This document shows, piece after piece, positions 5,149 to 18,553 of a DNA stretch of 64,000 bases (position 1 is its first letter; every line of letters begins with the position of its first letter). Origin of the DNA: Leptothoe kymatousa TAU-MAC 1615 (GTDB taxonomy: Bacteria; Cyanobacteriota; Cyanobacteriia; Phormidesmidales; Phormidesmidaceae); contig NZ_JADOER010000013.1 in NCBI RefSeq assembly GCF_018739865.1, positions 62,001 to 126,000 of the forward strand, in the 5' to 3' direction. Both the position numbers and the translations under genes were made by a program. The notes beneath the pieces were generated by a model. That model worked only from the letters and a program-made list of their open reading frames with translations, was not told where the DNA came from and ran no database searches.

Positions 5149-5376
5149 TTACGAGGCGGACTGCTTTTTGCGGTAGGCATACTGACCGTGGATATTGACG
5201 GAATAGGGAATGCCGTAGGTGAGCAGTCCGGCCAACCAGCGGCTGGGGGTCATTTTGCCATTGGCCAGGGCGGGACCGTGGTTAATGGTAAACAGAACGG
5301 TGCCGACGAAGAGAGCGACTTTAACAGCGCCAGGACGCAGGTCTCGGTCAGCAAGGGCGGAGAAATAGCCTTTCAT
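5149..5376 (-). CDS. nrtS: NrtS-type nitrate/nitrite transporter subunit
   Basis: A 75-residue membrane protein with two hydrophobic helices, VALFVGTVLFTINHGPAL and a second in WLAGLLTYGIPYSVNIHGQY. The NHG motif in helix one and the TPSRW...GLLTYGIPY...NIHGQ pattern match what I know of NrtS, a very small cyanobacterial nitrate uptake protein that works as a homo- or hetero-oligomer. Some species carry two adjacent nrtS genes; only one is seen here. A GTA-N8-TAC NtcA-type site lies 64 bases upstream of the ATG, which fits a nitrogen-regulated transporter. Identification rests on motif recall, not on alignment. Confidence 0.7.
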   Translation of the reverse strand: MKGYFSALADRDLRPGAVKVALFVGTVLFTINHGPALANGKMTPSRWLAGLLTYGIPYSVNIHGQYAYRKKQSAS

Positions 5377-5427
5377 GGTAGATGCGGTAACGATTTTTAT
5401 TTAGATGCAATATTTAAAAATTAACAT

Positions 5428-5486
5428 AAACCATAAAGTGTAGCGATGGCTACTGTTTTTAGTGCGATCGCTACACTTTATGGTTT
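5428..5486. repeat. 20-bp perfect inverted repeat upstream of nrtS
   Basis: The arms at 5428-5447 and 5467-5486 are perfect complements over 20 bases (AAACCATAAAGTGTAGCGAT), with a 19-base loop. The right arm contains a HIP1 octamer. It could be a transcription terminator between nrtS and whatever lies upstream, a cruciform operator, or the relic of a small mobile element. Confidence 0.65.
5440..5453 (-). promoter_or_regulatory. Candidate NtcA-binding site upstream of nrtS
   Basis: A perfect GTA-N8-TAC palindrome. Reading toward nrtS, a TTAAAT hexamer (minus strand, 5418 to 5413) follows 21 bases later, close to the 22-base spacing of NtcA-activated promoters. The motif occurs about once per 4 kb by chance, so position and the nitrogen-related target are what support it. 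It overlaps the left arm of a long inverted repeat. Confidence 0.5.
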
Positions 5487-11357: not shown

Positions 11358-12134
11358 ATGATCAATTTGAAGGGAAACTATTGGCAGGAAACGACGGCGG
11401 TGGCCCAGCGGATTTTGCTAGAGCTGGTGCGCCGTCGCCGCAGCCTGATTTTTTGGGCCATTTTTCCCACCCTGTTGCTATTTCTCAATGGGGCCATTAC
11501 CGCAGAACGCGCCCAGCTAGATCTGGCGGGTGCTTTGGCGGTGGTGGCACCGCCCACCCTGGTGGGGGCGGCCCTATTTTTTAGCTGCCTGGGGGGCAGT
11601 GTTGCCACCGTGGTGGCGGAACGGGAGCAAAAAACGCTGAAACGGTTATTTCTTTCCCCCCTGCGGGGGGTGTCCTACTTTTTGGGCATTGTTTTGGCCC
11701 ACAGCGCCATTGGTGTGGGTCAGGCTTTATTGGTATTTGCGATCGCCCTGAGCTTGGGGGCCACGTTTTCGGGGTCCTGGCCCCTGGCCATATGGATTAT
11801 TTTGCTCAGCATCCTGGCCTATGTGGGGGTGGGGTTTATTTTAGGCACCCAGTTTGCCCGCCGCACAGAAGATGTCAATGCCCTGGTGGCGGCCTTTGGG
11901 GTGCCGCTGCTGATCCTGGGCGGGGCGTTTATGCCCACCTCGATTTTTCCCGATAGTTTGTTGCGCTTAGCCCGGTTTAACCCCATTTTCCATATGACCG
12001 AAGCCCTCACCCTGACCATGGCCAATGAAGCCGCCGGGGACCATATTATATTTCTAAGCGGGTTTGCGATCGCCATGGTCATCGCCGGGTGGCTATCGTA
12101 TCGCCGTATGCTGCGCATCGAACGTCAACTCTAA
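11358..12134 (+). CDS. ABC-2 type transporter permease
   Basis: A 258-residue integral membrane protein with six hydrophobic spans and the typical mid-protein signature GSVATVVAEREQKTLKRLFLSPL, in which the EREQ/TL-R/L-P pattern marks the ABC-2 permease family. Such permeases export drugs, lipids or polysaccharide precursors together with a separate ATPase. No ATPase gene is adjacent, so this is an orphan subunit. Its last codons (RIERQL, stop) form the first part of a 45-base unit that is repeated downstream. Confidence 0.85.
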   Translation: MINLKGNYWQETTAVAQRILLELVRRRRSLIFWAIFPTLLLFLNGAITAERAQLDLAGALAVVAPPTLVGAALFFSCLGGSVATVVAEREQKTLKRLFLSPLRGVSYFLGIVLAHSAIGVGQALLVFAIALSLGATFSGSWPLAIWIILLSILAYVGVGFILGTQFARRTEDVNALVAAFGVPLLILGGAFMPTSIFPDSLLRLARFNPIFHMTEALTLTMANEAAGDHIIFLSGFAIAMVIAGWLSYRRMLRIERQL

Positions 12135-12270
12135 ATGCTTAAGTAGTCTGGTGTGCGGCGCACCGAACGTCAGCTCTAAAGGCTTAAATAGTGTGGTGTG
12201 CGGCGCATTGAACGTCAATTATAAAGGCTTAAGTAGTGTGGTGTGCGGCGCACTGAACGTCAACTCTAAA
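12120..12270 (+). repeat. 45-bp tandem duplication spanning a stop codon
   Basis: Three full 45-base units start at 12120, 12165 and 12210, and a partial fourth at 12255. Each unit carries the coding sequence for the last residues of the ABC permease (ERQL) and its stop codon, then the same spacer GCTTAAGTAGTSTGGTGTGC with small changes. In the duplicated copies the frame again reads RRTERQL or RRIERQL then stop. The period is an exact multiple of three. Confidence 0.85.
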
Positions 12271-12284
12271 ACCAAAAACACTCT

Positions 12285-12755
12285 ATGGATGCGAGTCTAC
12301 TAGCCACCTTTGGCGCCGGATGTTTCTGGGGCACCGAGAACGCCTTTCGTCAGCTAAAGGGGGTGAGCAGCACCTCCGTCGGCTACATGGGGGGGCATTT
12401 CGAAAACCCTTGTTACCTAGATGTACTTTCCCGCATCACCGGCCATGCGGAAGTGGCACAAATCCAATACGATCCTAGCCTGATCACCTATGGAACATTG
12501 CTAGAAACGTTCTGGCACATGCACGACCCCACCAGCCTCAACCGCCAAGGTGCCGACCGGGGAGAACAATATCGGTCAGTGATTTTTTATCACACCGATC
12601 AACAACAACAGCTGGCACAACAGTCTAAACGGGCCATGACCAGCAACTACAGCCAGCCCATTGTGACCCAAATTGTTGCTGCATCAGCCTACTGGCTAGC
12701 CACCGAAGAACACCAGCAATATTTCGAAAAAAAATCTTTTAAGAAATCCCCATAG
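12285..12755 (+). CDS. msrA: Peptide methionine-S-sulfoxide reductase MsrA
   Basis: A 156-residue repair enzyme that reduces methionine-S-sulfoxide in proteins, using a cysteine in the motif GCFWG (residues 12-16; catalytic Cys13). VGYMGGHFENPCYLDV and GHAEVAQIQYDP are the conserved following blocks. The protein is compact, lacking the N-terminal extension found in many homologues. It follows a tandem repeat and has no clear ribosome-binding site. A hairpin directly after its stop codon probably ends its transcript. Confidence 0.92.
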   Translation: MDASLLATFGAGCFWGTENAFRQLKGVSSTSVGYMGGHFENPCYLDVLSRITGHAEVAQIQYDPSLITYGTLLETFWHMHDPTSLNRQGADRGEQYRSVIFYHTDQQQQLAQQSKRAMTSNYSQPIVTQIVAASAYWLATEEHQQYFEKKSFKKSP

Positions 12756-12764
12756 CCAAAAAAA

Positions 12765-12795
12765 TATCCTGCCAATCTATAAAAAAGGCAGGATA
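12765..12795 (+). terminator. Hairpin after msrA
   Basis: TATCCTGCC (12765-12773) pairs with GGCAGGATA (12787-12795) over nine bases, ten bases after the msrA stop. The loop is A-rich, and on the minus strand a T-rich loop and tail are present, so it may serve both msrA and the convergent small peptide gene. Confidence 0.6.
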
Positions 12796-12857: not shown

Positions 12858-13034
12858 TTACTTAGACTGGTTGTCTAGCTGGTCTAGACGCTCGGCCTGG
12901 ATATCCTTAACAGCTTTGGACTGGTTGTCTAGGTGCTCAAGACGCTGCTCTTGTAGCTTGTTGCCACCGGCAACGTTCTCTAGTTGCTCGTCAGACAGTT
13001 GCTGATCGGAAGCATTCTTATTTTGCTCTTCCAT
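12858..13034 (-). CDS. 58-residue double-glycine leader peptide (secreted-peptide candidate)
   Basis: A small gene that length cut-offs miss. It encodes MEEQNKNASDQQ, then LSDEQLENVAGG (residues 13-24), then a 34-residue core. The L-S-x-E-x-L-E-x-V-A-G-G pattern is the classic double-glycine leader recognised and cut by peptidase-containing ABC exporters. The core has no cysteine and contains LDNQSK twice (35-40 and 53-58) in a charged, helix-forming context, so it is unlikely to be a lanthipeptide. A GAGG ribosome-binding site sits ten bases before the ATG. A HlyD-type secretion protein gene begins 700 bases away on the opposite strand. GG peptides of this kind act as bacteriocins or, as with the EbfG peptides of Synechococcus elongatus, in biofilm formation. 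The gene call is strong; the role is inference. Confidence 0.8.
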   Translation of the reverse strand: MEEQNKNASDQQLSDEQLENVAGGNKLQEQRLEHLDNQSKAVKDIQAERLDQLDNQSK

Positions 13035-13740
13035 GAAATTAACCTCGATTTTAAAACAACAAAATCTTGTCCAACAGATTGTGTCTGCTACAGGACTCTT
13101 TCATCATATCGAGACTTTTTCAAAATGGAAGTGGTTTTGTAAGATTCTCATGAACTTCTAATGATTTGCTCGGCTTTGAAGTACTTCCTAAGATTCTATT
13201 AAGATATGCAGGGGTGATTTATCCGAAACCTGAACAATTCCCCGGCAATCCTGAGAATCTCCTGAGCGTGCTCCATGTGGTTCAGGACAATGTGAGTCTT
13301 AGTTATTTTTTACCTAGCCAGTAATCGGCGCTCACGGGCTAACAAAAGTTCCTTGTGTAGGTTGTATGAAATCCAGTGAAACCCAACACCAGCAATGGTT
13401 ACGTTAGGCTACACTAGTGCTAACCTAACCCACGGCAGAACAAGGGTTTCGAACGTTTTGTCAGTTAACCAGCTCTACTGCTAGGGGCATTCTGACAGTT
13501 GCAGACTAGAAAGATAAACCGAACCTTAAGACTTACTTACTACATGGATTTTCAAGGTAAGTAAATTTTTAAGGTGAAACTATCCCCAGTTGCAGCACCA
13601 GAAAACATTAAGAGAAGTGAGGATTTTAGCCCCCGTTTATAGAGTATTAGACTAGGGATGTTCTAATCCATAATCCCTATGGTTACAATTGGGCAGTTAA
13701 TACATTAAATTTAAGTTGTTCAGTGAGGTGAGAAAATCCC
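13035..13740. other. Divergent intergenic region between peptide and HlyD genes
   Basis: About 700 bases with no supported gene. A short inverted repeat TTACTTAC (13533-13540) / GTAAGTAA (13557-13564) lies upstream of the HlyD gene. It must hold both divergent promoters. I found no second GG-type peptide here. Confidence 0.45.
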
Positions 13741-14331
13741 ATGGGAGACAGTAGTATTTTTCGGCAAGAAGCGCTGGAACGGCTATCTTCACCGGAACAA
13801 CTTGACCAGCTGATGAAAATTGTTTCGCCCCGCAGCTGGTTACCCCTCATTACCGTCGGGGGCCTGTTGGGGGCCGCTATTGTGTGGGGGTGCGAAGGAC
13901 GTATCCCGGTGACCACCAGCAGCCATGCTATTTTGGCCTATGCCGAAAATGATAGTAATGAGTTAATTGGTGTGGCGCATTTTCCGGCTGGGGAATTGGC
14001 CCAAATAGAACCGGGGATGGATGTGCTGCTGATCCCGGCTGTGGAGGGAAATAAGCAAGCCCCCGGCGGCATTGAAGGGACGGTCAAGCAGCTATCGGTG
14101 CCCATGGTGACCACCCTAGAAGGGGTGCGCCAACTAGAAGATCCAAGTGCCCCCAGTACGATTGAAGTATTAATTGATCTAACCCCCGACCCCGATACGG
14201 CCAGTGGCTACAAGTGGTCCGCCAGTAGCATGAGCATGATTCCCCTGGCGGGAATGCATGCAACCGCTCGGGTAACCCTGGAGGAAAAAGCACCCCTGTG
14301 GTTTGTACTACCGTTTTTGCACCAGTCCTAG
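13741..14331 (+). CDS. Minimal HlyD/NHLM-type peptide secretion protein
   Basis: A 196-residue protein whose opening (IFRQEALERLSSPEQLDQLM, then VSPRSWLPL) is the typical start of the HlyD-like adaptor of NHLM/NHLP bacteriocin export systems. One membrane span follows at about residues 38-53. The usual adaptor is near 400 residues with a long coiled-coil hairpin; here that hairpin is absent and only a beta-barrel-like region remains, ending in LWFVLPFLHQS. GAGGTGAG lies before the ATG. No exporter ATPase is nearby. It may work with the GG-leader peptide gene upstream (inference from proximity and family). It could alternatively be a regulatory or truncated adaptor. Confidence 0.75.
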   Translation: MGDSSIFRQEALERLSSPEQLDQLMKIVSPRSWLPLITVGGLLGAAIVWGCEGRIPVTTSSHAILAYAENDSNELIGVAHFPAGELAQIEPGMDVLLIPAVEGNKQAPGGIEGTVKQLSVPMVTTLEGVRQLEDPSAPSTIEVLIDLTPDPDTASGYKWSASSMSMIPLAGMHATARVTLEEKAPLWFVLPFLHQS

Positions 14332-17242: not shown

Positions 17243-17542
17243 TTAGTAAAGGGATTCTTCCTTGTGGGTTTCGATAGTACAGTCAGAAGTGGGGTAGCAA
17301 ACACAGGTTAAAACAAACCCAGCTTCGATCTGGTCATCGTCTAAGAAAGACTGATCGGACTGATCAACAGTGCCTGCAGTCAGCTTCCCAGCACAGGTGG
17401 AGCAAGCCCCTGCACGACAGGAGTAAGGAAGATCAAGCCCCTTCTCCTCAGCGGCATCCAAAATATACTCGTCTTCAGCGACTTCAATAGTGGTGTTTAG
17501 ATCTTCAGACTCATTAATTAGAGTAACCTTGTAGGTTGCCAT
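17243..17542 (-). CDS. petF: Plant-type [2Fe-2S] ferredoxin
   Basis: A 99-residue electron carrier downstream of photosystem I. Cluster cysteines are CRAGACSTC and a final Cys in VLTCVCYP, giving the C-x4-C-x2-C-x(n)-C pattern. AGAGGA precedes the ATG. Compared with the second ferredoxin 700 bases away it has SCRAGAC instead of SCSAGAC, an extra Cys after the last ligand (TCVCYP) and a slightly longer N-terminal loop. The two are clearly paralogues from a tandem duplication; different redox partners are plausible. A hairpin lies 45 bases before the start codon, as it does for the other copy. Confidence 0.93.
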
Positions 17543-18253: not shown

Positions 18254-18553
18254 TTAGTAAAGCTCTTCTTCCTGATGGGTAACGATGGTGCAGTCAGAAG
18301 TGGGCTTGGCTACACAGGTTAGGACAAAGCCAGCTTCGATTTGGTCATCATCCAAGAAGGACTGGTCTTCTTGATCTACAGTACCAGCGGTGATTTTACC
18401 TGCACAGGTGGAACAAGCACCCGCACTGCAAGAGAAGGGAAGATCATCTACTTCATCACCGTCGTTTGCAGCATCAAGAATAGTATCGTCTTCATCAACT
18501 TCAATTGTGGTGCTGTTGCCATCGGTGATCAGAGTAACCTTATAGGTTGCCAT
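18254..18553 (-). CDS. petF: Plant-type [2Fe-2S] ferredoxin, second copy
   Basis: A 99-residue ferredoxin with CSAGACSTC and [12 protein letters not shown]. Its sequence ([20 protein letters not shown]) is closer to the major photosynthetic ferredoxin than the first copy, and it is more acidic. AGAGAGGA precedes the ATG. The gene has its own terminator and a 16-base-stem leader hairpin. It hands electrons from photosystem I to FNR, nitrate reductase and similar enzymes. Confidence 0.94.

Follow-up and report, generated by a model that had tools for sequence, protein, structure and literature searches.

A double-glycine peptide of Leptothoe kymatousa whose core recurs in long secreted-type repeat proteins of the same genome

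A 64,000-nucleotide stretch of the Leptothoe kymatousa TAU-MAC 1615 genome (hereafter the window) carries a 58-codon frame that reads as a peptide with a double-glycine leader, and the locus raises the question of whether this frame is a gene, how its product would leave the cell and what the product would do there. To our knowledge, most cyanobacterial double-glycine peptides have no known function and have variable cores.

The frame occupies positions 12858..13034 of the minus strand, runs from ATG to TAA (stop at 12858-12860) and encodes no cysteine. It is preceded by a ribosome-binding site, GAGG (13043..13046, 8 nt before the start codon), read from the sequence. The product is divided into a leader of 24 residues (12963-13034), ending in GG within LSDEQLENVAGG, and a core of 34 residues (12861-12962; NKLQEQRLEHLDNQSKAVKDIQAERLDQLDNQSK), which consists of two putatively helical repeats and contains LDNQSK twice. 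In all these respects the original prediction described the gene correctly. A protein search returned 25 relatives, each matching end to end with 68-95% identity, and 24 of them have lengths of 57-59 aa. The exception, P0018 of Leptolyngbya sp. Heron Island J (85 aa, locus L014), is longer at its N-terminus, its public annotation beginning 27 residues too early and thereby hiding the leader. Some relatives are annotated, as “hypothetical protein,” which qualifies the earlier statement that such a frame is too short for usual gene calling.

An alignment of the window peptide with 24 of the 25 relatives has 20 invariant columns, including S14, L18, V21, G23 and G24 of the leader. Pairwise dN/dS among the window and four relatives (Nei-Gojobori) is 0.013-0.124 in 9 of the 10 pairs, with saturated dS in the remaining pair, and the leader and the core are each constrained across these five genomes. 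The frames are intact in all 10 named peptide loci fetched (L010-L019). A frame so short and so often labelled hypothetical might be taken for a chance or decaying one, but a dN/dS far below 1 and the intact frames of relatives refute this explanation, and conservation, synteny and a downstream hairpin also speak against it. Given 25 relatives of nearly fixed length, the low dN/dS, the ribosome-binding site and the conserved terminator-like hairpin, 12858-13034 is a real gene under selection, with hardly any room for doubt. Related genes also exist in further forms. At least four genus relatives carry another peptide gene at a separate place (L015-L018), genome G062 has an additional diverged peptide of 63 aa (L119), and three genomes have leader-core-leader-core genes with a second internal GG (G011, L133 8460-8735; G015, L103/L153; G055, L134 663-941). 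Judging from their sequence, such precursors would yield two two-repeat cores from one protein.

The hairpin lies at 12758..12795 on the minus strand, with arms at 12787-12795 and 12765-12773 followed by a run of seven T. An equivalent downstream hairpin is present in five genus relatives (L010-L014, of which L012 and L013 are nearly identical), where the arms have changed yet still pair fully when G-U is allowed. It is not listed by a consensus terminator scan, whose allowed loop length it exceeds, and the sites of the promoter and terminator scan are no more numerous than in shuffled sequences. The convergent neighbour is msrA (12285..12755, plus strand; TIGR00401, 190 bits), which adjoins the peptide gene in 4 of the 5 genus relatives, L010 having no msrA match; its position is conserved, but it is probably not part of the peptide system. 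Two other features of the surroundings were observed. Between an ABC permease gene and msrA, a frame at 12064-12303 with the repeated unit VCGALNVNxKGLSS resembles a short DNA tandem repeat, and a tandem pair of similar 99-residue genes, labelled by eye as [2Fe-2S] ferredoxin-like, is located at 17243-17542 and 18254-18553 (minus strand).

The divergent neighbour of the peptide gene is a short HlyD adaptor of the NHLM type (13741..14331, plus strand, 196 aa). It matches positions 1-55 and 287-420 of the 421 positions of TIGR03794 with 108 bits against a cut-off of 156.2, thus keeping both ends of the model without its middle, and the adaptors of the window and its relatives alike score 107-108 bits with both ends matched. 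In five genus relatives the adaptor is of equal length, 84-85% identical and located beside the peptide gene, and its dN/dS is 0.019-0.034 (5 of 10 pairs, those with unsaturated dS). A decayed adaptor or a fresh deletion is excluded by this identity, equal length and low dN/dS.

The distribution of the two genes was examined by profile searches over 63 genomes of the window's order, where a match to the peptide had to cover both leader and core. The peptide is present in 25 of the 63 genomes, 8 with the repeat type of the window and 17 with another core (e.g., VDFDQLRRENLDKDASRLDEIRRENLEKD); all 17 second-type peptides were read as sequences. For the short HlyD, 31 genomes matched at E 1e-15, and four (G040, G041, G043, G044) were dropped since only the first 66-77 model positions were matched, in proteins of ~500 aa, leaving 27, among which G014 is a partial match. 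Both genes are present in 23 genomes, the peptide only in two (G055, G020), the adaptor only in four (G067, G025, G034, G014) and neither in 34 (P = 4.6e-11, Fisher's exact test, which ignores the relatedness of the genomes). In 21 of the 25 peptide genomes the short HlyD is divergent from the peptide gene and within 2 kb of it; in the remaining four, the two genes are on different contigs (G049, G065) or no short HlyD was found (G055, G020). A much diverged double-glycine peptide was seen in G034 (L165, contig G034:C116, about 5264-5467), 1.4 kb from a diverged short HlyD; its core is different, ending RFREMRRENRDK, and it was left out of the counts. The nearby secretion adaptor named in the original prediction is an NHLM-family gene in a shortened form, with its transporter genes outside the window. 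Of 386 genomes sampled across the phylum, the second-type profile matched only 3 at E 1e-6, each of them a member of the window's family.

Outside the genus, 12 loci were fetched around the peptide gene (L118, L126-L136), and 11 of them contain a cyclic-nucleotide-domain protein, the short HlyD and a C39 ABC transporter in a row, the C39 gene being interrupted by the contig end in L127 and L136. The twelfth locus (L134) is a 3.9-kb contig without operon genes, and a second ABC transporter is additionally present in 9 of the 11. Scans covering four to five proteins of relatives assigned the cyclic-nucleotide-domain protein to TIGR03896 (233.6 and 194.3 bits, cut-off 161.05), the C39 transporter to TIGR03796 (1093.4-1122.5 bits, cut-off 853.3) and the second ABC transporter to TIGR03797 (987.9 bits, cut-off 709.4; copy of Leptolyngbya sp. 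PCC 7375). Within the genus, all five relatives tested have the ABC pair side by side at a site away from the peptide locus (little upstream sequence being covered in L074), and in all five the C39 ABC gene is over the cut-off. The window's own draft assembly, 75.3% complete, gave no TIGR03796 match over the cut-off, and its sole C39 match belongs to a long-type transporter that also has a cyclic-nucleotide domain; we take the missing NHLM C39 transporter as a probable assembly gap. The presence of the operon beside the peptide gene in 11 of the 12 loci beyond the genus makes it very likely that the peptide is the cargo of the neighbouring NHLM-type C39 exporter. Inspection of the gene maps by eye revealed neither a modification gene nor an immunity gene.

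With its short leader, hydrophobic spacing and GG before the core, the peptide has the sequence features of a double-glycine (C39-processed) precursor in the broad sense, and its linkage to a C39 ABC transporter is found in the 11 relatives' loci rather than within the window. It scores below the cut-offs of the NHLP precursor TIGR03793 (16.2 bits, cut-off 50.9) and the Nif11-type precursor TIGR03798 (15.6 bits, cut-off 32.3). The best NCBIfam match is to the CTB family bacteriocin NF038167 (22.4 bits, and 19.0-24.4 in three relatives, cut-off 32), which involves the leader region (residues 11-30) and leaves the core unmatched; no bacteriocin model reaches its cut-off. Pfam gave nothing at the cut-off for the window peptide, three relatives, three long repeat proteins or the scanned second-type peptides and long protein. 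Three peptide-type homologues (P0023, P0040, P0046) have a precomputed Pfam label, PF28158.1, so that part of the peptide group may already belong to a very recent family, PF28158.

The nearest described systems are the group V cyanobacterial “bacteriocin” clusters, for which the consulted part of Wang et al. (2011, PMC3140520) describes a two-CAP_ED protein, HlyD, a short-type C39 ABC transporter, a peptidase-less second ABC transporter and nearby double-glycine precursors. The peptide's operon has the same gene set, with the C39 ABC1, ABC2, HlyD and two-CAP_ED protein found together in relatives. Whereas that account emphasizes little core conservation among precursors, the core here is conserved and repeats the module of separate secreted-type arrays; also in contrast to it, the HlyD is shortened and the gene set is split in the window's genus. 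A member of the peptide group could appear in the supplementary precursor table of the same paper. The NHLP and Nif11-type precursors with the TIGR03794/03796/03797 cassette, as presented in the portion of Haft et al. (2010, PMC2887384) drawn on here, have the same transporter families and double-glycine cleavage, whereas this peptide has a leader of 24 residues, falls far under the cut-offs and has no modifying enzyme seen nearby. A literature search, with supplementary tables not covered, returned no paper on the peptide or its repeat. As far as this search goes, a conserved double-glycine core in common with a second, secreted-type family is new.

The second family was found when the window's genome was searched with the peptide. 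Its core only (residues 23-58) matched in three other proteins on two contigs, of 169, 187 and 129 aa (101 aa for the last when counted from its MKR start), which have 4-9 repeats. They begin with MKRTxLSALTVL and run on to APVAxA, and by eye the basic start, hydrophobic stretch and A-x-A predict Sec-type signal sequences. The repeats of the arrays are spaced by 16 and 18 residues, and the exported-type core is one such 16+18 unit; by this comparison of sequences, the 34-residue core corresponds to one complete module of the genome's own arrays. An array profile matched no PDB sequence at E 0.1. In Leptolyngbya sp. PCC 7375 (L013; G004/G022), at least nine intact array copies were found together with weaker or broken matches, and 8 of the nine intact copies are on contigs of 344 and 157 kb (L107-L114, L116; G022). 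Most long-protein copies have the gene and short flanks in common; L112, L113, L114 and L123 have 2.1-2.5 kb in common at 90-93%, and the flank comparison found no element boundary around the copies. In the window's genome, two long repeat genes are adjoined by frames that by eye are transposase-like and reverse-transcriptase-like (group II intron type; L025, 10018-11250 and 11861-13531).

Peptide genomes fall into two repeat types by lineage, RLEHLDNQSK or LRRENLDKD, and the peptide and the arrays are of the same type. The second-type peptides, like the first-type ones, are encoded divergently next to this operon, so they are positional counterparts with a changed repeat. Second-type long proteins have MKRIALALTALTAVSIAVAPAAHA-like starts followed by FDELRRENLDKD arrays, in which the units are paired at a distance of 15 residues and linkers often intervene (spacing 22-23), and one pair is one second-type core; in other second-type arrays a spacing of 15 alternates with 16 or 13. 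One LRRENLDKD-type protein (L170) scores 41.4 bits against the pentapeptide MXKDX model TIGR02953 (cut-off 41) over residues 3-58 only; as its repeat spacing is 15/23, not five, we do not assign it to that family. First-type arrays were read in 4 of the 8 first-type peptide genomes (G000, G022, G027, G062), and second-type arrays in 6 of the 17 second-type ones (G066, G011, G013, G015, G038, G055) as well as in nine genomes without detected peptide. Going by match counts alone, more than one match is present in 8/8 first-type and 15/17 second-type genomes. With the thresholds applied here, none of the 25 peptide genomes combines the two types. Searched with the first-type profile at E 1e-5, the 17 second-type genomes have 0-2 matches apiece, which in 15 of them were read as the peptide itself (no match in G019, a single match left unread in G020). 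The second-type profile at E 1e-3 matches once or twice per genome in the 8 first-type genomes, which equals their number of known peptide genes. The array families, although unlinked to the peptide gene, appear from these sequences to have changed repeat type along with the peptide. This joint change is the strongest hint of a common function for peptide and arrays. The co-divergence could stem from one old split and common descent rather than continued contact. Peptide and arrays are not obligate partners, since an array was not detected at E 1e-3 in the peptide genomes G039 and G050, and since no peptide was detected in many genomes with arrays.

Structure prediction (AlphaFold2) gave the peptide a single helix spanning residues 15-57 (mean pLDDT 78.7, pTM 0.43, 17 sequences) and the 169-aa array of the same genome one helix of 140 residues and a short one (mean pLDDT 84.8, pTM 0.35, 21 sequences). 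The models are single chains of low pTM and display no contact, and they predict that peptide core and arrays are both helical.

The following explanation would best accommodate these observations. The peptide gene is under selection, and its genomic partners are the short HlyD and, beyond the genus, an operon comprising the TIGR03896-type protein, the short HlyD, the TIGR03796 transporter and the second ABC transporter. The C39 domain would cleave after Gly-Gly and the core would be exported through the ABC pair with the short HlyD, a step that is probable in view of the leader, the linkage and the intact ECG motif of the C39 domain. The core itself is a single complete module of the genome's own arrays, peptide and arrays change repeat type in step between lineages, and both forms are predicted to be helical. 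The long arrays would be taken across the inner membrane by Sec and would meet the short module outside the cell. There the short module may co-assemble with the arrays in an extracellular matrix, sheath or biofilm, with the short form nucleating or capping; we hold this last step tentatively. That the core is also a module of signal-bearing arrays favours a structural or assembly function outside the cell over a free-standing bacteriocin. We put the probability of the chain as a whole, namely that a C39-exported helical two-repeat core assembles outside the cell with Sec-route arrays of the same repeat, at roughly 0.4. A bolder version, a two-route building system in which single units from the C39/NHLM route nucleate or cap Sec arrays, which reach 14 repeats, so as to form a helical matrix or sheath fibre, with two unlinked gene sets tightly co-evolving, is doubtful. 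A partial parallel is curli, in which CsgA and CsgB are secreted tandem-repeat proteins and a related minor subunit sets assembly. Curli is a beta amyloid with one secretion route, whereas the present system is predicted to be helical and would involve two routes.

The original prediction had suggested a secreted signal, a biofilm factor or a bacteriocin; a double-glycine peptide that is very likely exported stands, the product may yet be a signal or biofilm factor, and the bacteriocin is disfavoured. If the exported core were a cell-cell signal sensed by other cells, the long proteins would be alternative precursors cut outside or have another job. A small, conserved, exported-type core suits a signal, cut arrays would give like peptides as the core is one array module, leader-core-leader-core precursors exist, and the TIGR03896 cyclic-nucleotide-domain protein of the operon would couple export to a physiological signal. 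This reading is nonetheless unlikely, as the genomes read reveal no linkage of the peptide to any receptor or regulator gene, and arrays of 4-14 repeats, modelled as a rod, look structural. The peptide could also be an unmodified bacteriocin against close relatives, with periplasmic or surface arrays as decoys that bind it and give immunity; its leader resembles bacteriocin leaders (weak matches), the exporter family carries the bacteriocin name, and the arrays, like many resistance genes, are multi-copy and in PCC 7375 sit mostly on smaller contigs. This seems quite improbable given that no bacteriocin model is at its cut-off, that neither a modification nor an immunity gene was seen by eye in the gene maps, that the core is under purifying selection and has no net positive charge (4 K, 2 R, 4 D, 3 E, counted from the sequence), and that many genomes have arrays but no detected peptide and two have the reverse.

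A matrix role has a functional precedent in cyanobacterial biofilms, likened here by function and not by sequence. According to the parts of the reports consulted, EbfG1-4 of Synechococcus elongatus are double-glycine proteins required for biofilm and secreted with the help of a C39 transporter, PteB (PMC4997328), and EbfG1-3 form amyloid (PMC9981879); as proposed for this peptide, they are cyanobacterial double-glycine proteins with C39-aided release and a role outside the cell. The peptide might likewise be an amyloid matrix protein to which the arrays are irrelevant. We consider this very unlikely. The core is modelled as a helix, not strands, the EbfG precursors are about 9-10 kDa and are not stated in the consulted parts to have a module in common with other secreted proteins (PMC4997328, PMC9981879), and PMC4997328 states that mature EbfGs have no homology to proteins of other cyanobacteria. 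Such an explanation would also leave unexplained the module in common with the arrays.

The conserved core of this peptide has a visible candidate partner in the long secreted-type proteins that the same genome builds from this module, and this candidate offers a way to learn what a class of exporters now labelled “bacteriocin” does. The design is unusual in that one module is apparently sent out by two secretion routes, and the very short NHLM adaptor is a further unusual element of the system. If co-assembly with the arrays is the true explanation, the peptide would be a ready-made short piece of extracellular scaffold.
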